From contig NZ_NOXT01000113.1 in the NCBI RefSeq assembly GCF_002251755.1, positions 25,585 through 89,584 on the forward strand: a stretch of 64,000 nucleotides of DNA, written 5' to 3'. Position numbers and translations under genes: made by a program. The notes under the pieces were generated by a model, which was not told the DNA's origin, ran no database searches, and saw only the letters and a program-made list of their open reading frames with translations. This document shows positions 29,458-44,448 of the stretch, piece by piece; the first letter of the stretch is position 1; every line of letters begins with the position of its first letter. This stretch comes from Sandarakinorhabdus cyanobacteriorum (GTDB lineage Bacteria > Pseudomonadota > Alphaproteobacteria > Sphingomonadales > Sphingomonadaceae).

Positions 29458-29882
29458 GCGGGCAGGCCTTGCGGATCGCTGGTTATGCATCGGTGTTCGG
29501 CCGGCCCGACAAGGGCGGCGATGTGGTGCTGAAGGGCGCCTTTGCCGGCGCCACAGCACCCCTGCCGCTGTTGTGGCAGCACAAACAAGATGAACCAATC
29601 GGGTTCGTTGAGAGCCTGGCCGAGGATGGCCGCGGCCTGCGCATCACCGCGCGCATCGTGGCCGAGGGCCGGGGCAGCGAGGCCGCTGCGCTGGTGAAGG
29701 CCGGCGCCATTGATGGCTTGAGCTTTGGATACCGGGTGAAGGCCGCCAGCCCGACCCGGAATGGCCGCCGGCTGGAGCGGCTGGAGCTGGTTGAAGTCTC
29801 GCTCGTGACCTTTCCCATGCAGGGCGAGGCGCGGGTGCTGGGCTGGCAGGAGGAGCAGACGGATGCTGGAAGTGAAATCTGA
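29454..29882 (+). CDS. HK97-family prohead protease (GTA g4-like)
   Basis: 142 residues with the S78/U35 protease layout: GYASVFGRPDKGGDVVLKGAF, catalytic His in WQHKQDEPIG, catalytic Ser in IDGLSFGYR and the acidic partner in LVEVSLVTFPM. It normally removes the capsid N-terminal scaffold domain. Its last 20 bases overlap the capsid gene, an unusually long overlap for this cluster. Confidence 0.92.
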   Translation: MSGQALRIAGYASVFGRPDKGGDVVLKGAFAGATAPLPLLWQHKQDEPIGFVESLAEDGRGLRITARIVAEGRGSEAAALVKAGAIDGLSFGYRVKAASPTRNGRRLERLELVEVSLVTFPMQGEARVLGWQEEQTDAGSEI

Positions 29883-30846
29883 CAATCTGGCCGGCGTGTT
29901 TGATGCCGGTGTGGAGATCCCGGGCCGGCCGGCGCTGGAGGCCAAGGCGGTGACGATGACGCCGCCGGCCAAGGGCGGGCTGGGCGTGCCGCTGGAGATC
30001 GACGACACGATCAACCGCGTGCTGCGCGCTGCATCGCCGATCCGCAGCATCGCCCAGGTGGTGGAGGTGGGGTCGGCCAATTATCGCCGGCTGATCACCA
30101 CCACCGGCGTGGTTTCGGGCTGGGTTTCGGAAACGCAGGCGCGGCCCGAGACGGACACGCCGGATTTTGCCGAGATCGCCCCGCCGATGGGCGAGCTTTA
30201 TGCCAATCCGGCGGCCAGCCAGGCCATGCTGGATGATGCCGGCTTCAACGTGGAAACCTGGCTGGGCGAGGAGATCGGGCGCGAATTTGCCCGGGCCGAG
30301 GGCGTGGCCTTTGTGGCCGGCGATGGCGTGAACAAGCCGCGCGGTTTCCTGAGCGCGCCCACGGCGGCGACGGCGGATGCGACCCGGCCGTTCGGCACGT
30401 TGCAGACGGTGAATTCGGGCGCGCTGGGCGGCTTTGCGGCGACCAATCCGCAGGACCGGCTGATCGATCTGGTGCATGCGCTGGCCAGCCCCTATCGCCA
30501 GGGCGCGGTGTGGGTGATGAACAGCGCGACGCTGGCCCGCATCCGCAAGTTCAAGACCAGCGATGGAGCCTTCATCTGGCAGCCGGGCCTGGGGCCGGAC
30601 CAGCCGCAGACGCTGCTGGGCTATCGCGTGGTGGAAGCCGATGCGATGCCGGACGTGGCGAGCGACAGCCTGAGCATTGCCTTTGGCAATTTCCAGGCCG
30701 GCTATCTGATCGCCCAGCGCCGCGAGACCGTGGTGCTGAAGGACCCTTACAGCAACAAACCCTATGTCCATTTCTATGCCACCCGCCGCGTGGGCGGGGC
30801 GGTGCTGGACAGCCGCGCCATCAAGCTGATGCGTTTTTCGGCCTGA
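29863..30846 (+). CDS. Phage major capsid protein, HK97 fold (GTA g5-like)
   Basis: 327 residues. The mature HK97 fold begins at about residue 33 (MTPPAKGGLGVPLEIDDTINRVLRAASPIRSIAQVVEVGSANYRRLITTTG) and is well preserved (SGWVSETQARPETDTP, GELYANPAASQAMLDDA, EFARAEGVAFVAGDG, RRVGGAVLDSRAIKLMRFSA). Only about 32 residues precede it, whereas the family normally carries a roughly 100-residue delta (scaffold) domain. The ATG at 29863 is the only plausible start, inside the protease gene. A strong terminator follows directly. Confidence 0.94.
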   Translation: MLEVKSDNLAGVFDAGVEIPGRPALEAKAVTMTPPAKGGLGVPLEIDDTINRVLRAASPIRSIAQVVEVGSANYRRLITTTGVVSGWVSETQARPETDTPDFAEIAPPMGELYANPAASQAMLDDAGFNVETWLGEEIGREFARAEGVAFVAGDGVNKPRGFLSAPTAATADATRPFGTLQTVNSGALGGFAATNPQDRLIDLVHALASPYRQGAVWVMNSATLARIRKFKTSDGAFIWQPGLGPDQPQTLLGYRVVEADAMPDVASDSLSIAFGNFQAGYLIAQRRETVVLKDPYSNKPYVHFYATRRVGGAVLDSRAIKLMRFSA

Positions 30847-30855
30847 GGCGTGGCC

Positions 30856-30897
30856 GGGGCCGGCGGACTGACCCCCTGCCGCCGGCCCCCATTTTTT
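30856..30897 (+). terminator. Intrinsic terminator after the capsid gene
   Basis: A perfect 11-bp GC-only stem (GGGGCCGGCGG at 30856-30866, CCGCCGGCCCC at 30879-30889), 12-base loop, then CA and six T (30892-30897). It sits 10 bases after the capsid stop and directly before the Shine-Dalgarno of the next gene, so it would cut or attenuate transcription within the cluster. Confidence 0.85.
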
Positions 30898-30910
30898 CAA
30901 GGAGATCGCA

Positions 30911-31366
30911 ATGCCCGACAATGTGACGGCGCCCGCCGTGGGCGTGGCCTTTGCCACCGACGAAATTGCCGGCGTGCACTGGCCCTTTGCCAAGCTGGCC
31001 TTTGGCGCGGCCGATGCGGCCGTGCGCGTGGCCGACGCGGACGGGTTTCGGCTGCCGGTGAGCGTGCCGACATTGGCCACCAGCACCCGCGCCTATGATT
31101 TTGCCGCCGGGCAACGCCTGACGACGGCGGGCAGTGGCCAGGTGCGATCGGCGGCGGTGGCGGCGGCCGAAGTGTTGCTGCACGCATCGGTGCGCGGGTT
31201 TTTCCGCGTGGGCGATGCCGCGGTGGCAGCGAGCGTGGGCGCGGGCAGCATCCCGTTGGCGGCGGATGAGAAATTCCACCTGCGCATCGCCCCTGGCCAG
31301 TTCCTGTCCTTCATTCGCGATGGTGCCGCCGATGGCAGCCTGACCATCGTGCCGGTGGCGCCATGA
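30911..31366 (+). CDS. Phage virion-associated protein, unknown function
   Basis: 151 residues, preceded by a very good ribosome-binding site (AAGGAG, six bases before ATG). The N-terminus VGVAFATDEIAGVHWPFAKLAFG resembles a motif seen at the start of small structural proteins of many tailed phages. The C-terminal half (LLHASVRGFFRVGDAAVAAS...FHLRIAPGQFLSFIRDGAADGSLTIVPVAP) reads as a beta-rich domain. No enzymatic motif. It is the first gene of the insert between capsid and connector; decoration or fibre attachment is inference. Confidence 0.6.
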   Translation: MPDNVTAPAVGVAFATDEIAGVHWPFAKLAFGAADAAVRVADADGFRLPVSVPTLATSTRAYDFAAGQRLTTAGSGQVRSAAVAAAEVLLHASVRGFFRVGDAAVAASVGAGSIPLAADEKFHLRIAPGQFLSFIRDGAADGSLTIVPVAP

Positions 31367-31581
31367 TCGGCCTGATCGGCGCGGTGGGGCGGGTCGGCAT
31401 GGCCGGCGGGCGGCGCGTGGCCCCGGCCGGCGTGCCGGATTTCGACCTTTCGGGCAGCAGCGTGACAACGGCCTGGGGCACGGTGGCGGTGGGCGATCTG
31501 GTGCCCAACGCCGCCACGCCGGCGGGGGCCTATTTCGTGCTGGTGGGGGAACCCGCCGGCCTGGCAGTGGTGAACGGCTGA
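31363..31581 (+). CDS. Small phage-type protein, unknown
   Basis: 72 residues (MIGLIGAVGRVGMAGGRR... to GAYFVLVGEPAGLAVVNG), coupled by ATGA to the preceding gene and sharing one base with the next start. The first 20 residues are hydrophobic and Gly-rich, the remainder beta-like. No recognised family. The tight coupling on both sides supports it being a real gene. Confidence 0.6.
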   Translation: MIGLIGAVGRVGMAGGRRVAPAGVPDFDLSGSSVTTAWGTVAVGDLVPNAATPAGAYFVLVGEPAGLAVVNG

Positions 31582-34322
31582 TGGCAATTCAGGTGCAAAC
31601 CCAGGGCGCGACTGATCTGCGGCTCAGCGCGGCCATCATCAAGCCCGGCTATGCCGGCGCCGGCCGCAGCATTGGCGGCCAGACGGGCCAGTTGATGGGC
31701 CATTGGCGGGCGATGTTCGTGCGGCTGCCCGGCAGCGGCTTCACGCTCAATGGCGCCTATGTGATGCTGGGCAGTGATGGCAACAGTGGTGGCAACTTCG
31801 CCGCCGGTGATGACACGTCGCTGCGCATCTTTGGCACCGGATCGGTAAATACGCTGCGGCCGTCGGCCCGCTATCGCAGTGGCAGCACCGAGGCCTTTGC
31901 CGGCACGGCCGGCGCCGAGGGCCAGTTCGCCGGCATTGCCGCCATGAGCGCCACGCCCAGCGTGTGGCTGGTGATCGAAGGCGTCACCAACACCGGCAGC
32001 AACGCCAGCCCGGTGTGGCGGGGCTGGGGCGCGGTGTGCCAGGTGGGCAGCGCCGCGCCATCGAGCCAGGTGGCGGCCACGGCCATTGCATCGGCCTGGA
32101 TCAGCGGCACCACCGGGGCCCTGTTGCGGCAGATTTTTGCCGCGGCCGGCACCGGTTCCACCCGCACGCCCGTTGGCGTTGCCATGGAACAGGTGGCGCT
32201 GGCCGCCGGCGATTTCCCGTGGGACACGGCCAACAACCGCCCGCATCATGATGCCATTGCGGCGCTGGCCGGTGGCGGGGCCAACCCGTTCCACACCTAT
32301 GCCAGCCTGGTCGCGGCGCAGAATGCCGGCACCCTGCCCTATGCCAACTGCGATCAGGGGCGCGGCAACCTCGATTATCACTGGACGCTGCGCACGCTGA
32401 CCGCCGGCCTTGCCAACAGCGGCACCGCCGGCACCGCCACGCTGGCGCAGCAGGATTGGAACGCCCTCACCGGCGGCTTGGTGGACACAGGCGATATCGC
32501 CCCCACCCACTGGTATGGCGGTGCGCCGGCCATCACCAACCCGGCGGTGAAGTTCACCAGCGGGCGCGGCACCCGCGCCACCGTGGTGGCCGGCACCCGC
32601 AATGATGGCGCGGCCGTGGAACGCCGCTGGGAGCGCATGAGCGACAGCACGGCCGTGGCCGGGCTGGACTGGGGCGCGCCGGCCAGCCAGAGCGGCACCG
32701 CCTGGCAGGTGAGCGACACGCTGCCGGTGGGCGGGCCCTATCGCCTGCGCGTGCGCTATGTCGCCGATCCCGGCCTGTCGGCCAGCTCGGATGATTGGCT
32801 GGTGGGCACAGCGTTGTGCATCAATGGCCAATCCGGCATGGAACTGATCTTCGAAGGCGGCACGGCCGGCGGCAACAATCTGAACATCGCGGTGGCCAGC
32901 GGCGCGCAAGGGCTGCTGGTCAAGCTGAACAACCAGAGCGGCGGCACCGCCGCCACCTATGCCCAGCCCAGCCTGACTGTGAGCCGCCTGGCCAGCGGTG
33001 CCACCCCGGCCAACAACCACGGTGCCGTGCTGTTCCTCAACGAATGGAACGCCGCCAACCCCGGCCACCCGCTGCTGATCTGCAACATGGCGATCAACGG
33101 CACGGCGATGGCGGATTGGGCCAACAACACCACGGTCAACAGCGGCCATGCCAGCTGGACGTTTTTGGGCACGATCGGCGCTGTGGCCGGGCCCAGCAGC
33201 GGCAATGCCAGCGGCGTGGTCGAAGCCTATGCAGCCGCGCTCAATCGGCACATCGATGCCCACATGATGATGTGGACGCCGAACATGAGTTCGGACAGCG
33301 CGGTGCGGGCCAGCTATGTCGCGGCCATCGATGCGCGGTTCAGCAACGCCGCCAGCGCGCCGTTCATCGTGATGCCGCCGTGGCGCGGCCACCGCGAACC
33401 CGGCGACCTTTCCAGCCTGGTATCGAAGCGGCAGGAGCATCTGGATTTCGTGGCGCAGCTGAATGCGGCGCTGGCCGGGCGCGGCGTGCTGGGGCCTTAT
33501 TGGGCCGATACCGTGATGGACGGCAAACCGAACCCGGCCACCGATGGCGGCACCGGTTCGCTGCACTGTGCCTTCAACAATGCGGCCGGCGCGCTGGCCA
33601 ACACCGGCGGTTCGCCGGTGAGCGATGAAAACCAGGTGGGGCAGGCCCGGCTTGGCCGCAGCCTGGGCCGCGTGCTGGCTTGGCATTGGGATCGCACCAT
33701 CAAGGCGCACGGCCCGCGCGTGCTGGCCGCCTGGAGCGACAACGGCCGCGCCACGGTGCAGATCGAGCTGGGCCGCGCCTGCCGCACGCTGAACGGTGCC
33801 GCGATCAGCGCCAACCAGTTCTGGGTGAGCCTGACGGGCGGCACCAGCTTTGGCCGCGCCGATGGGCAAAGCGAGACGCTGACCGCCACCGGCAACCCGA
33901 ATTTCACCGTGGCGCTGGACGCGACGGGTACGCGGGCGATCCTCACCCCGGCCGATGGCGGCACCGCCTGGGCGGCGGCGGGCGCAAACCTGCGGGTGGA
34001 TTATGCCCGGCGCTGGCCATTCGGCCCCACCGATCTGCCCGATGAACGGAACAGCGAACGGGCGCTGGATGGCATTCTGTATGACGACCAGACCCATCGC
34101 GGCGGCACCAATTTCAGCGCCGGGGTGCGGCCGGGCAATCCATGCCAAGGCAGCAACCGCACCGGCGCCGGGCTGGCCGGCGTGGCCGTGGCCACCCGTG
34201 GGCCGGCCAGGCTGGTCGCCACCGAACGCTGGACCGGCACCCGCAACGTGACGGTGCGGATGATGGCCGCCGATGGGGTGACGGTGCTGCGGGAACGGGC
34301 GCTGCCAATTGTGGCGGCCTGA
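31581..34322 (+). CDS. Large fibre-like protein with SGNH/sialate-esterase-like domain
   Basis: 913 residues, the largest gene of the cluster. Residues 1-165 look like a beta-sandwich (LamG/lectin-like) domain. Residues about 410-700 resemble an SGNH hydrolase of the sialate O-acetylesterase type: block I ALCINGQSGMEL (putative nucleophile Ser418), a block-II-like NMAINGTAMADWAN, and a late Asp655/His662 pair in DGGTGSLHC followed by QVGQARLGRSLGRVLAW. Beta-rich segments lie between 170 and 400 and from 700 to the end. The protein is rich in Gly, Ala, Thr and Asn like phage fibres. It could deacetylate capsule or surface sugar. The Asp-His spacing is not typical, so activity is uncertain. Confidence 0.6.
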   Translation: MAIQVQTQGATDLRLSAAIIKPGYAGAGRSIGGQTGQLMGHWRAMFVRLPGSGFTLNGAYVMLGSDGNSGGNFAAGDDTSLRIFGTGSVNTLRPSARYRSGSTEAFAGTAGAEGQFAGIAAMSATPSVWLVIEGVTNTGSNASPVWRGWGAVCQVGSAAPSSQVAATAIASAWISGTTGALLRQIFAAAGTGSTRTPVGVAMEQVALAAGDFPWDTANNRPHHDAIAALAGGGANPFHTYASLVAAQNAGTLPYANCDQGRGNLDYHWTLRTLTAGLANSGTAGTATLAQQDWNALTGGLVDTGDIAPTHWYGGAPAITNPAVKFTSGRGTRATVVAGTRNDGAAVERRWERMSDSTAVAGLDWGAPASQSGTAWQVSDTLPVGGPYRLRVRYVADPGLSASSDDWLVGTALCINGQSGMELIFEGGTAGGNNLNIAVASGAQGLLVKLNNQSGGTAATYAQPSLTVSRLASGATPANNHGAVLFLNEWNAANPGHPLLICNMAINGTAMADWANNTTVNSGHASWTFLGTIGAVAGPSSGNASGVVEAYAAALNRHIDAHMMMWTPNMSSDSAVRASYVAAIDARFSNAASAPFIVMPPWRGHREPGDLSSLVSKRQEHLDFVAQLNAALAGRGVLGPYWADTVMDGKPNPATDGGTGSLHCAFNNAAGALANTGGSPVSDENQVGQARLGRSLGRVLAWHWDRTIKAHGPRVLAAWSDNGRATVQIELGRACRTLNGAAISANQFWVSLTGGTSFGRADGQSETLTATGNPNFTVALDATGTRAILTPADGGTAWAAAGANLRVDYARRWPFGPTDLPDERNSERALDGILYDDQTHRGGTNFSAGVRPGNPCQGSNRTGAGLAGVAVATRGPARLVATERWTGTRNVTVRMMAADGVTVLRERALPIVAA

Positions 34323-34337
34323 ACGGGAAGGGCGGCG

Positions 34338-34520
34338 ATGATCCTGACGCATTTCATCCTGTGCCTGGCCCAGCCGCCGGTGCTGATCGCGCCCGAGCCG
34401 GCGACCTGCCCGGCCAGTGCCGGGGCCAGCGATGTGACGATCATCAGCGCCAGCGCGCCAGCCGGGCCGGTGCTGCGCGTGGCGCCGGCGCCGACGGTGC
34501 TGGTGGTGGGCCGCAGCTGA
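34338..34520 (+). CDS. Small protein of the fibre module, unknown
   Basis: 60 residues (MILTHFILCLAQPPVLIAPEP...APTVLVVGRS) with a plausible ribosome-binding site (GGGAAGGG) and an N-terminal hydrophobic stretch. No family recognised. It is placed 15 bases after the large gene and in the same direction. Real gene likely from position, but the composition is compatible with a chance frame. Confidence 0.45.
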   Translation: MILTHFILCLAQPPVLIAPEPATCPASAGASDVTIISASAPAGPVLRVAPAPTVLVVGRS

Positions 34521-34565
34521 GCCGGCGGGGCGACGGGCAACAGGAATTCAAGGGGAGTGCAGGCG

Positions 34566-34934
34566 ATGGCGAAATTTGCCGATGCATCGGTGCTGGATGC
34601 GGCGCTGGCCGTGGTGGCGGGCGCAACCCGGCTGGTGGTGACCAATGGTCAGCCGGCCGATGTGGCCGCGGCCGATGCGGCGCGACTGGCAGAGACGACG
34701 CTGGGCCCCGGCGATTTCAGCCTGGGGACCAGCGCCGGGGGTGGCCGGCGGCTGACGGTGGCGGGCAAGGCCGGGCTGGTGGCGCTGGCCAATGGCACCG
34801 CCGATCATGTCGCCCTGATCGATGATGGCGCCGGCCGCGTGCTGCAGGTGACGACCTGTCCGCCGGCCGCGGTGCTGGCCGGCGTGGCGCTGAACGTGGC
34901 GGGCTGGGATTTCGTGATCGGGGCGCCGTTGTGA
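34566..34934 (+). CDS. Tailed-phage structural-module protein, unknown
   Basis: 122 residues, start chosen at ATG 34566 after AAGGGGAG (an in-frame GTG lies 9 bases upstream). The pattern ASVLDAALAVVAGATRLVVTNGQPADVAAAD...GDFSLG...GRRLTV...GLVALANGTADHVALIDDGAGRVLQVTTCPPAAVLAGVALNVAGWDFVIG matches a small family I know from many tailed phages, usually near head or fibre genes, with no assigned function. It supports a phage origin for the insert. Confidence 0.6.
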   Translation: MAKFADASVLDAALAVVAGATRLVVTNGQPADVAAADAARLAETTLGPGDFSLGTSAGGGRRLTVAGKAGLVALANGTADHVALIDDGAGRVLQVTTCPPAAVLAGVALNVAGWDFVIGAPL

Positions 34935-34974
34935 ACATGGTTTTGAGCGCGGCAACAGGGAAAGGACGGGCGGC

Positions 34975-35268
34975 ATGACCGGCGTGTTCCTGAAGGATCC
35001 GGGCGGGCGCCTGGAATATCAGGTGGATTGGCAGAGCGATTATCTGGCCGGCCGCAGCATCATGGCTTCGGACTGGCAGGTGCTGCCGGATCAGGCCGGG
35101 GTGGCCGCGGCGTTGACGCTGAGCGCGCCGCGCCTGGCCGATGGCCGCACCGCCATCACCTTGGGCGGCGGGCGGGCGGGCCAGCTGTATCGCGTGGTCA
35201 ACCGCATCACGCTGGCCGACGGCAACAGCGATGAACGCACCCTGCTGGTGCGGGTGGAGGACCGGTGA
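34975..35268 (+). CDS. Phage fibre-tail adaptor-like protein
   Basis: 97 residues with an immunoglobulin-like pattern: FLKDPGGRLEYQVDWQSDYLAGRSIMASDWQVLPDQ...GRTAITLGGGRAGQLYRVVNRITLADGNSDERTLLVRVED. The DP..LdY.vDW..YL...I..S.W opening is common in small phage structural proteins thought to join fibre and tail modules. A GGAAAGGACGG ribosome-binding region precedes it. The stop shares one base with the connector start. The function is by analogy. Confidence 0.6.
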   Translation: MTGVFLKDPGGRLEYQVDWQSDYLAGRSIMASDWQVLPDQAGVAAALTLSAPRLADGRTAITLGGGRAGQLYRVVNRITLADGNSDERTLLVRVEDR

Positions 35269-35789
35269 TGGCAGCGATTTCCCTGGACGCCGGCCCGATG
35301 GTGGTGGGCCTGGCGGAATGCAAGGCTGCGCTGCGGCTGGAGCGGGATGATGAGGATGGCCTGATCGCCGGGCATATCCGCACCGCCATGGCGCTGTGTG
35401 AGGCGTTCACCGGCCAATGGCTGATCGAGCGCGAGGGCGAACAGCGGCTGGCCGGCGATCTGGCCTGGCAGCGGCTGGCCGTGGCCCCGGTGGTGCAGGT
35501 GAGCGGGGTGTTCGCCGGGCCGGCCGCGCTGTCTGATGGCTGGGAGGCGGAGGTGACGGCCGATGGCAGCGGCTGGGTGCGGCTGACGCGGCTGCCGCAA
35601 GGCGCGGTGGCGGCGCGCTTCCGCGCCGGGCTCGCACCCGATTGGAATGGTGTGCCGGAGCCGCTGCGGGCCGGGATCGTGCGGCTGGTGAGCCATTTCT
35701 ACAGCCATCGCGATGCCGCCGATGCCGGCCCGCCGCCGGCCGCCGTGGCGGCGCTGTGGCGGCCCTGGCGGCGGATGGCATTGGCTTGA
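35268..35789 (+). CDS. Head-tail connector (GTA g6-like, gp6 family)
   Basis: 173 residues, mostly helical at the N-terminus (VGLAECKAALRLERDDEDGLIAGHIRTAMALCEAFTGQWLIER), typical of HK97 gp6-type adaptors that form the ring below the portal. The ending RAGIVRLVSHFYSHRDAADAGPPPAAVAALWRPWRRMAL is a well-known family C-terminus. TGATG overlap with the preceding gene. With this gene the normal GTA order resumes. Confidence 0.88.
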   Translation: MAAISLDAGPMVVGLAECKAALRLERDDEDGLIAGHIRTAMALCEAFTGQWLIEREGEQRLAGDLAWQRLAVAPVVQVSGVFAGPAALSDGWEAEVTADGSGWVRLTRLPQGAVAARFRAGLAPDWNGVPEPLRAGIVRLVSHFYSHRDAADAGPPPAAVAALWRPWRRMALA

Positions 35790-37685: not shown

Positions 37686-38223
37686 ACTGGTGGTGCAGGT
37701 GCGCGCCGATACCGGCGGCTTCATGGCCGGCGTGGCGGAGATGCAGCGCACGCTGGATGGGCCCTTTGCCGGCGGGCTGGAGCGGGCCGGGCTGGGCCTG
37801 TCGCGCTCGCTGGGGCGGGCGCTGTCGGACGGCAAGCTGGGCTTTGACGAGCTGCGCGTGATTGCGCTCAGGGCGCTGGGCGAGATCGGCCAGGGTGCGC
37901 TGCGCATGGATTTGGGCAGCCTGTTTGGTGGCGGCGCGGCGCGGCCGCTGGCGGGCTTTCTGGGCGGGCTGTTCGGCCTGCCGGGGCGGGCCACCGGCGG
38001 CCCGGTGGCGGCGGGGCGCCCCTATCTGGTGGGCGAACGCGGGCCGGAAGTGTTTGTGCCCACGGCGGCCGGGCGGGTGGAGGCCAATGGCGGCGGCCGG
38101 GCGCCGATCCAGCTGACGGTGAATGTGGCGGCCCCGCGTGAGGCAAGCGCCCAGGCGATGCGGCAGACGGGCGCGCAGGTGGCGCGGGCGGTGGCGCGCA
38201 CGCTGGACCGGGTGCGGCCATGA
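37663..38223 (+). CDS. Short tail tape measure protein (GTA g11-like)
   Basis: 186 residues. VDELVVQVRADTGGFMAGVAEMQRTLDGPF is the usual GTA tape-measure opening; the middle is helical; FGLPGRATGGPVAAGRPYLVGERGPEVFVPTAAGRVEANGGG is the strongly conserved C-terminal region of many tape measures. Such proteins fix tail length and may help DNA delivery. It is somewhat shorter than the about 220 residues I recall for the Rhodobacter GTA protein. Overlaps the next gene by 4 bases. Confidence 0.87.
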   Translation: MLNDPVDELVVQVRADTGGFMAGVAEMQRTLDGPFAGGLERAGLGLSRSLGRALSDGKLGFDELRVIALRALGEIGQGALRMDLGSLFGGGAARPLAGFLGGLFGLPGRATGGPVAAGRPYLVGERGPEVFVPTAAGRVEANGGGRAPIQLTVNVAAPREASAQAMRQTGAQVARAVARTLDRVRP

Positions 38224-40553
38224 TGCGCTGGTGGCTGGCCGGGCCGGACGATCGCGGGCGCACGCGCTGGATCCGGCGCTTTGATCCGTCGTTCTGGCTG
38301 GTGGATTTCCCGCGGCCGATGATGGCGAGCGTGACCACCGAGGGCGATGAGACCCTGGTGGTGGATGTGGAGTTCCAGCGCCGCGCCGATCTGGCCGGGT
38401 TAATCTGGGAATCGGCCGACCGTTGGAGCCATCCCCTGTGCGCGCTGACGACCCGGCGGGATTATCGCGGGCTGGTGTGGCGGTTTCGCTGGCAATCGAG
38501 CGGGGCGGTGCTGCCGCTGGATGCGGTGAACGGCCCGGTGTTGACCATTGAGGGGCGCGATGCCGGCGGCCGGCTGCGCACCTGGTATGTGCGGCTTTGG
38601 AATTATGCCGTGGGCAGCCCGGCCGATGCCGAGATCGCGCTGGATTTTGATGCGCTGGCCGGCGGCTTTCTGTTGCCGGGTGAGGCCGATCCGGTGTGGG
38701 CGGGCGATATCGACCGGCTGTTCATCAGCCTGGTGCCGCCTGGCCATGACGGCGTGGATGCCCCGCTGCCCGCTGTGGCGCAGGGGCAGGTGCGGCTGAC
38801 CAACCTGCTGGTGGATGGCGATGGCGCCGTATTGCCCGCCGGAGAGCCCGGCCTGCCGCCGCACGACTGGCGGCTGTGCACGGCCTATGACGATCTGTAC
38901 AATCAGACCCCCGAACGCATCCTGACCCAGGCACTGCTTTTGGGCTGGCGCGGGGCGATCACCCATTATCTGGGCATGAGCCATTTCATGGCGCTGCAGC
39001 CGGATGGGGCGGGGGGCTATGTTGTTGATCCGGCGCGGCCCTTGTGCGGCCCAGCGATGGCCTGGCACCGGGATTTCCTGGCGCGGGCGCATCAGCTGGG
39101 CTTTGCGCCCATCCTGTCGCTGTCGATGGAGCTGTTTGCCGCGCACTGCCCGGCCGACTGGGCGCAGCGGGATGCCACGGGGGCGATGGGGCTGACCGGC
39201 TGGGTGCCACCATCGGCGCTGCTGTCGCCTTGCCAGACGCAAGCCCAGGCCTGGTTGTGCAGCGTGGTGGCGGCGGCCATGGCGCTGTTGCCGGCGGGCG
39301 CCGCGCCGGCCTTTCAGGTGGGCGAGCCCTGGTGGTGGGTGGGGCCCGATGACCGGCCCTGCCTTTATGATGCCGCCACGGCGGCGCGCTGGCAGCTGGA
39401 AACCGGCAGCCCGCCGCCGGCCATGTTGGACGTGAAGGGCAGCAAGAGCGCGGCCGAGCAGGCGTATCTGGACTGGTGTGGGGCGCGGCTGGCGGAAGCG
39501 ACAGCCGGCATGGTGGCGGCGGCGCCGGCGGGCACGGTATCGCATTTGTTGTTCTATGCGCCGCAGGTGCTGCTGGCCGACCGGCCCGATCTGGCCCGCG
39601 CCAATATGCCGGCGGCTTGGGCCCATCCGGCCTTCGACGTGCTGCAGCTGGAGGATTATACGTTCGTGACCACAGCCAATCAGGCTGGTCAGGCACGGGC
39701 GCGGGCGGCGGTGGCCGGGGCATTGGGCTATCCGCCCACGCAACAGCATTATCTGGCCGGCTTTGTGCTGAACGCCAGCGATGCACAGGTGCACTGGCCA
39801 TTGATTGCTGATGCGGCAGCCGGATCGGCGGCCAGCCAGGTGTTCATCTGGGCCTGGCCACAGGTGGCGCGCGATGGCTTCACCCCCTTTGCCCTGGATG
39901 ATGAGGGAGACGCCGCCATGCCGGCCTTTCACGATGTGCGCTTTCCGCTGGAGCTGGGCTTTGGCGCGACCGGCGGCCCCGGTTTTTCCACCCAGGTGGT
40001 GGTCACGGGATCGGGCGCCGAGCAGCGCAATGCCGATTGGGCCGATGCCCGGCTGGAATTTGATGCCGGCGTGGGCATCCGTTCGGAAGCCGATCTGGAA
40101 CGGCTGGTGAGCTTTTTCCGGGCCCGGCGCGGCCAGGCGCATGGCTTTCGTTTTCTAGACCCGCTGGACAACAGCAGCGCGGCCGATGGCGGGGCACCGG
40201 CCGCCACCGATCAATTTCTGGGGCAGGGCAGTGGCAGCACCACGCGCTTTGCCCTCGTCAAGACCTATGCCGATGCCGGGGTGGAGGATGCCCAACTGCG
40301 CCGCATCACCCGGCCCTGGCCCGACAGCGTGCGGGTGGCGGTGGCCGGGGTGGAGCAGGTGGCGGGCTGGTCGGTGGCGCCCGGCGGCCACATTGATTTT
40401 GCCGAGCCGCCGCCCGCCGGAGCCGCGGTCACCGCCGGTTATCGCTTTGATGTGCCGGTGCGTTTTGCGGCTGACCGCATCGAGGTGTCGATCGCCGGCT
40501 GGCGGGCCGGCGAGCTGCCATCGGTGCCGCTGATCGAAATCCGGGAGGATTGA
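38220..40553 (+). CDS. Distal tail protein (DUF2460) with large N-terminal extension (GTA g12-like)
   Basis: 777 residues. The C-terminal part (about 570-777) is DUF2460/TIGR02217: FPLELGFGATGGPGFSTQVVVTGSGAEQRNADW, EADLERLVSFFRARRGQAHGFRFLDPLD and the ending. About 570 residues precede it. Residues 1-200 look beta-rich; about 215-540 resembles a TIM-barrel/glycosidase-like or non-contractile-tail-sheath fold (ITHYLGMSHFMAL, WHRDFLARAHQLGFAPILSLSMELFAAHCPADWAQRDATG, AFQVGEPWWWVG, VLQLEDYTFV). The Rhodobacter GTA gp12 is only about 200 residues, so this is an N-terminally extended version. Catalysis is unproven; Glu in GEPWWWVG is a candidate. Confidence 0.83.
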   Translation: MMRWWLAGPDDRGRTRWIRRFDPSFWLVDFPRPMMASVTTEGDETLVVDVEFQRRADLAGLIWESADRWSHPLCALTTRRDYRGLVWRFRWQSSGAVLPLDAVNGPVLTIEGRDAGGRLRTWYVRLWNYAVGSPADAEIALDFDALAGGFLLPGEADPVWAGDIDRLFISLVPPGHDGVDAPLPAVAQGQVRLTNLLVDGDGAVLPAGEPGLPPHDWRLCTAYDDLYNQTPERILTQALLLGWRGAITHYLGMSHFMALQPDGAGGYVVDPARPLCGPAMAWHRDFLARAHQLGFAPILSLSMELFAAHCPADWAQRDATGAMGLTGWVPPSALLSPCQTQAQAWLCSVVAAAMALLPAGAAPAFQVGEPWWWVGPDDRPCLYDAATAARWQLETGSPPPAMLDVKGSKSAAEQAYLDWCGARLAEATAGMVAAAPAGTVSHLLFYAPQVLLADRPDLARANMPAAWAHPAFDVLQLEDYTFVTTANQAGQARARAAVAGALGYPPTQQHYLAGFVLNASDAQVHWPLIADAAAGSAASQVFIWAWPQVARDGFTPFALDDEGDAAMPAFHDVRFPLELGFGATGGPGFSTQVVVTGSGAEQRNADWADARLEFDAGVGIRSEADLERLVSFFRARRGQAHGFRFLDPLDNSSAADGGAPAATDQFLGQGSGSTTRFALVKTYADAGVEDAQLRRITRPWPDSVRVAVAGVEQVAGWSVAPGGHIDFAEPPPAGAAVTAGYRFDVPVRFAADRIEVSIAGWRAGELPSVPLIEIRED

Positions 40554-43959: not shown

Positions 43960-44448
43960 ATGCCGCAGACGGATCGATTGGGCCTGCCGTTGCTGGCAGC
44001 GGGCCAGGGGCAGAAGGATGTGACCCACAATGAGGCGCTGGCCCGGCTTGACCATCTGGTGGCGCTGGCCGTGGTGTCGCGCACGGCGGCTGCACCGCCG
44101 CTGGCCCCGGCACCCGGCGATTGCCACATCGTGCCGGCTGCTGGCGCTGCGGCATGGGGGCAGCCGGCCGGCACGCTGATGATCTGGCAGGGCAGCGGCT
44201 GGCAGGCCGATGCGCCGGCCGCTGGACAGATCGCATTGGTGCGGGATGAGGGCGTGATGCTGGTGCATGACGGGGGCTGGCAGGCGCTGTGGCCGGTGGC
44301 CGGGTTGCGCATCGGCGGGCGCATGGTGCTGGCCGTGCCGCCGGCCAGCGTGGCGGCCCCCAGTGGCGGCACGAGCGTGGATGCGGAGGCCCGTGCCAGC
44401 CTGGCTGCGTTGGTTGCCGCATTGCAGGCGCAAGGGCTTTTGCTGTGA
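43960..44448 (+). CDS. DUF2793 protein, end of GTA-type cluster
   Basis: 162 residues: QTDRLGLPLLAAGQGQKDVTHNEALARLDHLVALAVVS, then GDCHIVPAAGAAAWGQPAGTLMIWQGSGWQ...GVMLVHDGGWQAL, then a Ser/Ala-rich stalk and a short C-terminal helix. DUF2793 proteins are small tail-fibre-like proteins that regularly follow g15 in sphingomonad and roseobacter GTA loci. It is the last gene of the cluster; no terminator with a T-run follows. Confidence 0.87.
   Translation: MPQTDRLGLPLLAAGQGQKDVTHNEALARLDHLVALAVVSRTAAAPPLAPAPGDCHIVPAAGAAAWGQPAGTLMIWQGSGWQADAPAAGQIALVRDEGVMLVHDGGWQALWPVAGLRIGGRMVLAVPPASVAAPSGGTSVDAEARASLAALVAALQAQGLLL

Follow-up and report, generated by a model that had tools for sequence, protein, structure and literature searches.

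Host recognition by gene transfer agents (GTAs) has been described for Rhodobacter, in which capsule-binding vertex spikes and tail fibres as well as a baseplate enzyme, TspA, are reported (accessible text of PMC7296036, PMC10218006, and PMC13420450). In the Rhodobacter particle (RcGTA), the spike is found on 11 pentamers (PMC7296036), and the spike fibre is encoded outside the head-tail cluster (PMC11409702). Here, we analyzed a stretch of 64,000 nucleotides from Sandarakinorhabdus cyanobacteriorum (contig NZ_NOXT01000113.1, positions 25,585–89,584; hereafter the window) that carries an RcGTA-like cluster, in which six open reading frames (ORFs) of 151, 72, 913, 60, 122, and 97 amino acids (aa)—designated A151, B72, C913, D60, E122, and F97—lie between the genes for the capsid (g5) and the head-tail connector (g6). 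All features given below are on the + strand, and the end coordinates of ORFs include the stop codon.

The insert probably encodes an appendage that carries an enzyme and sits at the neck of the GTA particle. We judge such an esterase fibre on a neck collar to be more probable than a vertex spike of the RcGTA type because F97 is a member of the Gp77 family, E122 has a neck- or fibre-like predicted fold, and C913 has an acetylesterase-type predicted fold with the conserved candidate catalytic residues S418 and H662; these results, like the gene order, come directly from the computations.

Collar Adaptor and Predicted Whisker Protein

F97 (34975–35268) belongs to the Pfam family Gp77 (PF23148), that of the fibre-tail adaptor of podophage GP4, with an E value of 6.1e-23 and a score of 81.6 bits vs a cut-off of 27, and is accordingly described as a fibre-tail collar adaptor. 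A profile made from 23 F97 homologues, the majority of which come from GTA clusters, recovers the GP4 chain 8jou_D (E = 9.2e-11), a chain that a search with the single F97 sequence reaches only at E = 0.3. The gp77 gene stands directly before g6 in the window and in the GTA clusters of 10 other genera. Judged from the sequence, this neck-collar protein is the sole recognisable anchor in the insert.

E122 (34566–34934) is a predicted neck-whisker or fibril protein joining the fibre to the collar. Its AlphaFold2 (AF2) model, built on 51 sequences, has a predicted local distance difference test score (pLDDT) of 91.4, and its top three structural matches (VIA) are a neck chain of Shigella phage Sf14 (Z 10.1), a connector chain of Bas63 (Z 9.8), and a tail-fiber chain of phage 7-7-1 (Z 8.4). 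The Sf14 chain is aligned over 105 residues with a root-mean-square deviation (rmsd) of 2.7, yet the best Foldseek E value is weak (2.7e-3). Sequence-profile searches of the PDB returned no solved relative of E122, and a literature search on the Bas63 whiskers returned unrelated work only. E122 was also compared with the RcGTA spike base and rejected as such (profile-comparison probability 0.4%).

The two genes occur together in many viral loci. In a scan of viral contigs confined to the best 80 of 141 matches to E122, 78 loci were newly fetched, at least four of them on contigs already fetched; gp77 was also present in 67 of the 78, with E122, gp77, and a g6 relative occurring together in 65. 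Two records of isolated phages match E122: in Mae-JY22, E122 is followed by gp77, and in Octadecabacter DB virus 2, E122 is the second gene downstream of a 'tail tubular protein' and is directly followed by a 'tailspike protein', with gp77 not found in the part covered. Furthermore, a locus from another family of the class (L145) shows a 401-aa ORF, E122, gp77, and g6 in a row, the contig beginning there.

Predicted Esterase-Fold Protein

C913 (31581–34322) is a predicted fibre enzyme, described on the basis of an AF2 model, Foldseek and VIA comparisons, and a 16-row alignment. The model, built on 16 sequences with a mean pLDDT of 67.9, contains a laminin-G (LamG)-like domain (residues ~8–275), an immunoglobulin (Ig)-like domain (~312–412), an SGNH/CE20-type acetylesterase fold (~407–714), and a C-terminal part of low confidence. 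Residues about 313–837 of the predicted model match the CE20 acetylesterase XAC1771 (7kmm) in Foldseek at E = 4.2e-16; in VIA, the predicted model aligns with XAC1771 at Z 17.6 (rmsd 6.4 over 379 residues) and with the sialate esterase SIAE (8F9O) at Z 17.3. Residues about 8–275 give laminin-G-like matches, the best being a dimethylformamidase domain (Z 12.6), and other fold matches are the tailspike of phage Pan3 (Z 12.6) and tail chains of N4 (Z 11.4 and 10.9). With respect to sequence profiles, no Pfam, PHROG, NCBIfam, or PDB match was obtained at the limits used, and no match to PF03629 (SASA) at E ≤ 1; C913 is therefore not filed as a member of PF03629. S418, located in a GQSG motif, and H662 are invariant across the 16-row alignment, down to 48% identity, and were assigned as the candidate catalytic Ser and His by motif.

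An SGNH domain that has turned into a lectin-like adhesin, so that the fibre binds without cutting, would fit the position of C913 outside PF03629 by sequence, and also the stretch between D643/D647 and H662, the length of which differs between homologues. However, the invariance of S418 and H662 argues against such a loss, as does the retention of the GQS and DxxH motifs in large proteins encoded in the capsid–g6 gap of other clusters (L041, L045, L046, and L092), and we consider a non-cutting fibre quite improbable. As a separate observation, two C913 homologues (L006:8001-11276 and L011:2896-5979) carry repeated segments, roughly 85–90 residues each as judged by eye, inserted between the N-terminal and SGNH domains.

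Predicted Linker Proteins

A151 (30911–31366) is a predicted linker or base protein. In a 10-row alignment of its homologues in GTAs, the N-terminal ~50 residues are conserved, the middle varies in length, and the C-terminal half is of two alternative types, that of locus L034 being the different one. No convincing family match was found in the profile libraries, and comparison with PDB sequences gave nothing useful. In the middle of the A151 homologue L034:9124-9780, units of the type LPGFASPPAVTIGG recur almost unchanged, a pattern reminiscent of an extendable shaft.

B72 (31363–31581), as shown by alignment and by comparison of loci, is the constant upstream partner of the esterase: among the 16 C913 loci, it lies upstream of C913 in all 13 that are not cut inside C913, the other three starting within that gene. 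It has a Gly/hydrophobic N-terminus and a conserved C-terminal domain—the predicted dock—which ends in GLAVVNG in most rows and which in L009 terminates an ORF of >900 aa. An N-terminus of the AFGIA(R/Q)GW type is common to L006 and L034, and MIG...-type starts are found in the window and nine other A151-bearing relatives; in the P2-like prophage L006, a 185-aa protein encoded ahead of B72 shares 59% over 103 aa with the C-terminal half of A151 from L034. This covariation between the A151 C-terminal half and the B72 N-terminus suggests the A151 C-terminal domain as the docking site of the latter.

The same two proteins are the starting point for placing the enzyme on a capsid vertex, with A151 as a diverged spike base on the pentamers, B72 threaded N-terminally like the RcGTA head fibre, C913 on top, and E122–F97 forming a separate collar. 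Indeed, A151 and B72 overlap by 4 nt, and spike base–fibre pairs likewise overlap or nearly touch; moreover, spike fibres often begin with Gly/aromatic or Gly/Leu runs (GFGFG, IGLGLSLTL), and B72 begins MIGLIGAVGRVG (compared by eye). On the other hand, A151 gave no match to the RcGTA spike-base family (NF048002) at E ≤ 5, and its hhalign comparison with spike bases yielded a probability of 0.1%. Evidence from the relatives, given in the next section, also bears on this arrangement.

Capsid–Connector Gap in Relatives

Among 59 genomes of the family, gp77 was found in 16, E122 in nine, and the RcGTA spike base in 12; gp77 and the spike base were both absent from 14 named control genomes. Thirty-six complete capsid–g6 gaps were picked by hand, with a GTA-type capsid and g6 on the same contig and strand, leaving out G018 and G022 (contig ends) and weaker, prophage-type capsids. 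Twenty-five of these gaps measure 88–432 bp, two of them holding gp77, and the remaining 11 measure 1310–4427 bp, nine with gp77, two with an RcGTA spike base, and none with both. Counted by genome, slot-borne gp77 occurs in 11 of the 36 and a spike base in nine (seven outside the slot), with both occurring in none (Fisher p = 0.034, or 0.076 without one below-cut-off spike hit). In 296 genomes of the order, gp77 was found in 81, the spike base in 50, and both in two (p = 8e-6), counts that pool GTA and prophage copies. This exclusion is confounded by kinship, and the Fisher p values are therefore descriptive only.

The cargo of the slot varies. Mechanically called ORFs of 934, 916, 713, 549, 384, 377, 225, and 196 aa occupy it in other GTA clusters; L048 and L049 have gp77 alone between capsid and g6, and L037, L038, L039, L042, and L043 have different large proteins ahead of gp77, that of L038 being LamG-like below cut-off and that of L039 containing an fn3 domain. 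The 713-aa protein of L045, grouped with C913 only via chained BLAST matches, has a clear SASA domain (E = 4.6e-16). A second large cargo family of ~930 aa (L037, L043, and others) was also observed before E122–gp77 in the same slot; single-linkage clustering placed 41 ORFs in it, some from overlapping loci, and the L037 and L043 proteins had no Pfam or PHROG match.

In G050 (L134) and G055 (L133), the capsid–g6 gap is occupied by an RcGTA-type spike base, the gene of which overlaps a fibre gene. Both spike bases match NF048002 (E about 2e-28 each), and that of G050 also matches Rcc01079 in 6tb9 (E = 5.1e-11); the fibres that follow show SASA (E = 9e-4) and GDSL (E = 0.0018) matches that are weak and fall short of the cut-off. 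No match to NF048002 was found in the source genome (assembly 99.95% complete, 130 contigs). The 11 long gaps, holding either gp77 or a spike base and never both, thus give the gap the appearance of an exchangeable receptor-binding slot. A wider proposal, to which we give an even chance, is that this is a general feature of Sphingomonadales GTAs: the slot would hold either a gp77 collar, often with E122, or an RcGTA-type vertex spike base, each with swappable carbohydrate esterases or adhesins, the window version being a five-part neck fibre in which B72 serves as a universal dock letting the esterase move between phages and GTAs.

The two relatives with a true spike base in the slot, followed by fibres with traces of esterase families, also speak for the vertex arrangement of A151, B72, and C913, and the occurrence of B72–C913 without gp77 in prophages points the same way. 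It is nevertheless unlikely, given the mismatch of A151 with the spike-base family, the failure of slot-borne gp77 and the spike base to coincide in any of the 36 genomes, and the position of C913 directly before gp77 in the prophage-like locus L035. A preliminary description, made from the DNA letters, had likened the insert to the RcGTA head spike, which it named GhsA/GhsB; this holds as an analogy, to which the two relatives with a slot-borne spike base lend weight, and is not supported in the sense of a vertex spike homologous to that of RcGTA. Its view of the insert as a virion fibre module is supported by the Gp77-family collar adaptor F97, the neck/fibre-like fold of E122, and the acetylesterase-type fold of C913, and the link that it drew to heads is supported by the module being tied to head and neck genes in both GTA clusters and prophages.

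Distribution of the Module

C913 was found in 16 loci, on nine viral contigs and seven genome contigs, including Sandarakinorhabdus oryzae and Sphingomonadales metagenome-assembled genomes. Twelve of these loci are GTA clusters, three of them cut by contig ends (L007, L011, and L036), and the order capsid–A151–B72–C913–(D60)–E122–gp77–g6 is found in nine of the 16. Four loci lie outside GTA clusters. In L006, P2-type scaffold and capsid genes lie upstream of the C913 module and tail protein X downstream; in L030, a GpA terminase lies upstream and a lambda-type portal downstream; in L035, C913, gp77, a g6 relative, an 83-aa ORF, and a head completion protein follow one another; and in L009, terminase-like and portal-like ORFs flank the module on either side. 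These neighbours were named by Pfam in L006, L030, and L035 and by eye in L009. An element unrelated to virions was rejected, since all four non-GTA loci have prophage head or neck genes beside C913.

The finding of parts of the module in P2-like, lambda-like, and other prophages could also mean that a phage fibre block has become stuck in the GTA cluster as a leftover with no role in the particle. We regard this as very improbable: the frames are open in relatives, most comparisons, those of D60 aside, show an excess of third-position differences, the position is the same in nine of the 16 C913 loci, and gp77 is slot-borne in 11 of the 36 family clusters.

Within the order, C913 was found in one of 147 genomes, the source genome itself, and is therefore confined to close relatives and some prophages, gp77 being spread more widely. 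Class-wide, gp77 was found in at least two of 240 genomes, one of them the source genome, a lower bound because at most 21 candidates were scored per genome. Over 55 pairs, the median identity is 0.90 for the capsid, 0.75 for A151, 0.61 for B72, and 0.51 for C913; the insert evolves faster than the capsid shell.

Proposed Mechanism and Its Significance

For the appendage we infer an arrangement that extends to its location on the particle, stoichiometry, contacts, substrate, and activity. F97 would form a collar around the connector g6, like GP4 gp77 around its adaptor, and E122 would be a whisker or fibril unit on this collar. In RcGTA, the adaptor g6 touches both the portal and the capsid (accessible text of PMC7296036), and a collar on g6 would therefore sit at the head-tail joint. 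A151 and B72 would link the enzyme: B72 would insert its N-terminal peptide into the A151 C-terminal domain and hold C913 by its own C-terminal domain. The LamG-like domain of C913 may bind surface polysaccharide and its SGNH domain remove acetyl groups, such that, ahead of tail engagement, the particle could adhere to the capsule or exopolysaccharide of sphingomonad recipients and make its way through it. In Rhodobacter, the head spike fibre and the tail fibre bind capsular polysaccharide (accessible text of PMC10218006), and a receptor role of the insert fibre is proposed by analogy with that system.

Several results weigh against this neck-collar fibre. The confidence of the C913 model is low (mean pLDDT 67.9), and C913 has no sequence-profile match at the limits used. 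For E122, the Foldseek E values are weak (best 2.7e-3), its Z of 10.1 lies modestly above the 7–8 often reached by models without a clear match, and its GP4 fibre I match (Z 5.9) ranks among unrelated methyltransferases. The A151/B72 contact draws on two vs nine relatives and on analogy. The module is also patchy: gp77 occurs in one of the three other sampled genomes of the genus (G516, not G020 or G514), and an insert of more than 432 bp is missing from 25 of the 36 family clusters. Finally, B72–C913 occurs without gp77 or E122 in the covered parts of L006, L009, and L030, so C913 does not depend on a collar, and A151/B72 may attach it to the capsid.

A neck-collar esterase fibre in a collar-or-spike slot would provide a named, testable set of receptor-binding genes for Sphingomonadales GTAs. 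It would also yield predictions as to which recipients acquire DNA, and would account for the faster change in the fibre relative to the shell. If the exchangeable slot is real, fibre exchange would let a domesticated transfer particle stay matched to the polysaccharide coat of its own population.

Borders of the Insert and Surrounding Cluster

The capsid gene directly 5′ of the insert (29863–30846) encodes the major capsid protein (g5; PF05065, E = 4.4e-84; TIGR01554, E = 4.5e-97), and the gene directly 3′ (35265–35789) encodes the head-tail connector/adaptor (g6; TIGR02215, E = 2.8e-17; phrog_442, E = 1.3e-18). A terminator-like element (30856–30897) separates the capsid gene from the insert and consists of a G+C hairpin of 11 pairs (30856–30889) followed by TTTTTT (30892–30897); its folding energy is −30.5 kcal/mol (z −1.95), a stability matched by 8 of 200 shuffles. 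A simple terminator scan did not list the hairpin, probably because that scan allows loops of 8 at most. By eye and without folding, a G+C hairpin is seen at the same place in eight of nine relatives, the exception being L008; three of the eight have a different stem, and the T-run is retained only in the closest relatives, L003, L005, and L031. A ribosome-binding site, AAGGAG (30899–30904), recognised from the sequence, ends 6 nt ahead of the first insert ATG.

D60 (34338–34520) is a doubtful small ORF. The third codon position accounts for 0.32–0.38 of its differences from four relatives vs 0.38–0.62 for the other five genes—that is, none of the four comparisons shows the third-position excess expected as a coding signal—and no family match was found in the profile libraries. 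A homologous ORF is present in seven of the 16 C913 loci, being matched in six of the nine with the full order, and of the three full-order loci without a match, L032 shows a similar ORF by eye. For the other five ORFs, chance is excluded by homology, with the capsid-to-connector order kept in nine of the 16 C913 loci. By these sequence criteria, the insert consists of five clear genes and one doubtful ORF. The preliminary description had placed six genes here, of which five are backed by homology and D60 lacks a coding signal; its account of about 4.4 kb with six ORFs of the lengths given above between capsid and connector was confirmed at the coordinates, as was a start after a terminator-like hairpin with a strong ribosome-binding site of its own. 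Its remark that g6 follows g5 in model GTAs agrees with the gap census, in which the gap does not exceed 432 bp in 25 of 36 family clusters.

The surrounding cluster is RcGTA-like, encoding an Rcc01695-family distal tail protein, a phage/GTA hub protein, and a megatron-related protein, with the GTA-type hub, distal tail, and megatron genes of the window in RcGTA order. TIGR02217 (1.5e-66) and TIGR02218 (2.4e-59) both match above cut-off, and the megatron-related protein matches NF048004 at E = 9.9e-113 with 378 bits, below the cut-off of 800. The protein at the megatron position has just 715 aa vs a 1299-position model. In the protein at the g12 position (window 38220–40553), the N-terminal domain (PF23844) and the TIM barrel (PF23845, E = 1e-130) of a non-contractile tail sheath are fused to a DUF2460 distal tail domain, and a DUF2793 protein (window 43960–44448) follows the megatron-position gene, as it does in L031–L034 and L036. 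A second HK97-type capsid with a g6-like connector is present in the same genome (contig C72, 17.1–18.7 kb) and is probably a prophage.

Comparison With Known Systems

The gp77 protein of the Ralstonia podophage GP4 forms a 15-fold ring. The insert shares with GP4 (8JOU) the gp77 family, to which F97 belongs, and a weak resemblance of E122 to the fibre I chain (Z 5.9). GP4 differs in being a podophage, whereas the module described here belongs to a GTA cluster whose tail genes are of the long-tail type and lies between the capsid and connector genes, beside an acetylesterase-fold protein. A collar fibre in phage DEV has been described with a 15:12 mismatch 'like in the podophage GP4' and an esterase-like domain (accessible text of PMC10925440). 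In the Alishewanella siphophage LSH1, gp34–gp35–gp36 have been assigned, in a working model, to a payload, a GP4-like fibril, and an Ig-fold attachment protein (accessible text of PMC13243795). This payload/fibril/collar model parallels the proposed insert fibre; in LSH1, however, the payload is a plausible depolymerase or adhesin domain and no GTA is involved, and the likeness is one of description.

The E122 model aligns over 105 residues to a 108-residue neck chain of Shigella phage Sf14 (chain K of 9C39; Z 10.1), a phage with the neck whiskers gp30/gp31. In Sf14, the whiskers are attached via an adapter and the phage has a tail sheath (accessible text of PMC11821841). The CE20/SIAE acetylesterases (XAC1771, 7KMM; SIAE, 8F9O) share the predicted fold of C913 (Z 17.6 and 17.3) and differ in sequence (11–18% identity in seven rows), with C913 lacking a Pfam SASA match and having an extra LamG-like domain and a phage context.

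Collars, whiskers, esterase-bearing phage fibres, and GTA spikes are each already known singly. In the literature searched, from which subscription journals were mostly absent, no description was found of a GTA with a gp77 collar or with an esterase; as far as that literature shows, a gp77-type collar with an enzyme fibre in the GTA capsid–connector gap, and the alternation of collar and spike anchors there, are new. A GTA-borne polysaccharide-degrading enzyme is known in the RcGTA tailspike TspA, which boosts gene transfer and, according to the accessible text of the preprint, is a β-helix enzyme on the baseplate, present in Rhodobacterales and not in other megatron-bearing Alphaproteobacteria (PMC13420450). 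C913 differs from TspA in its predicted SGNH acetylesterase fold and in its probable location near the neck. Lastly, the RcGTA head spike Rcc01079/Rcc01080 differs from the insert in that the source genome is without a spike base and A151 is not homologous to one by profile; the two would have in common a head-side receptor-binding appendage of a GTA, and the spike-base family of RcGTA fills this very slot in G050 and G055.

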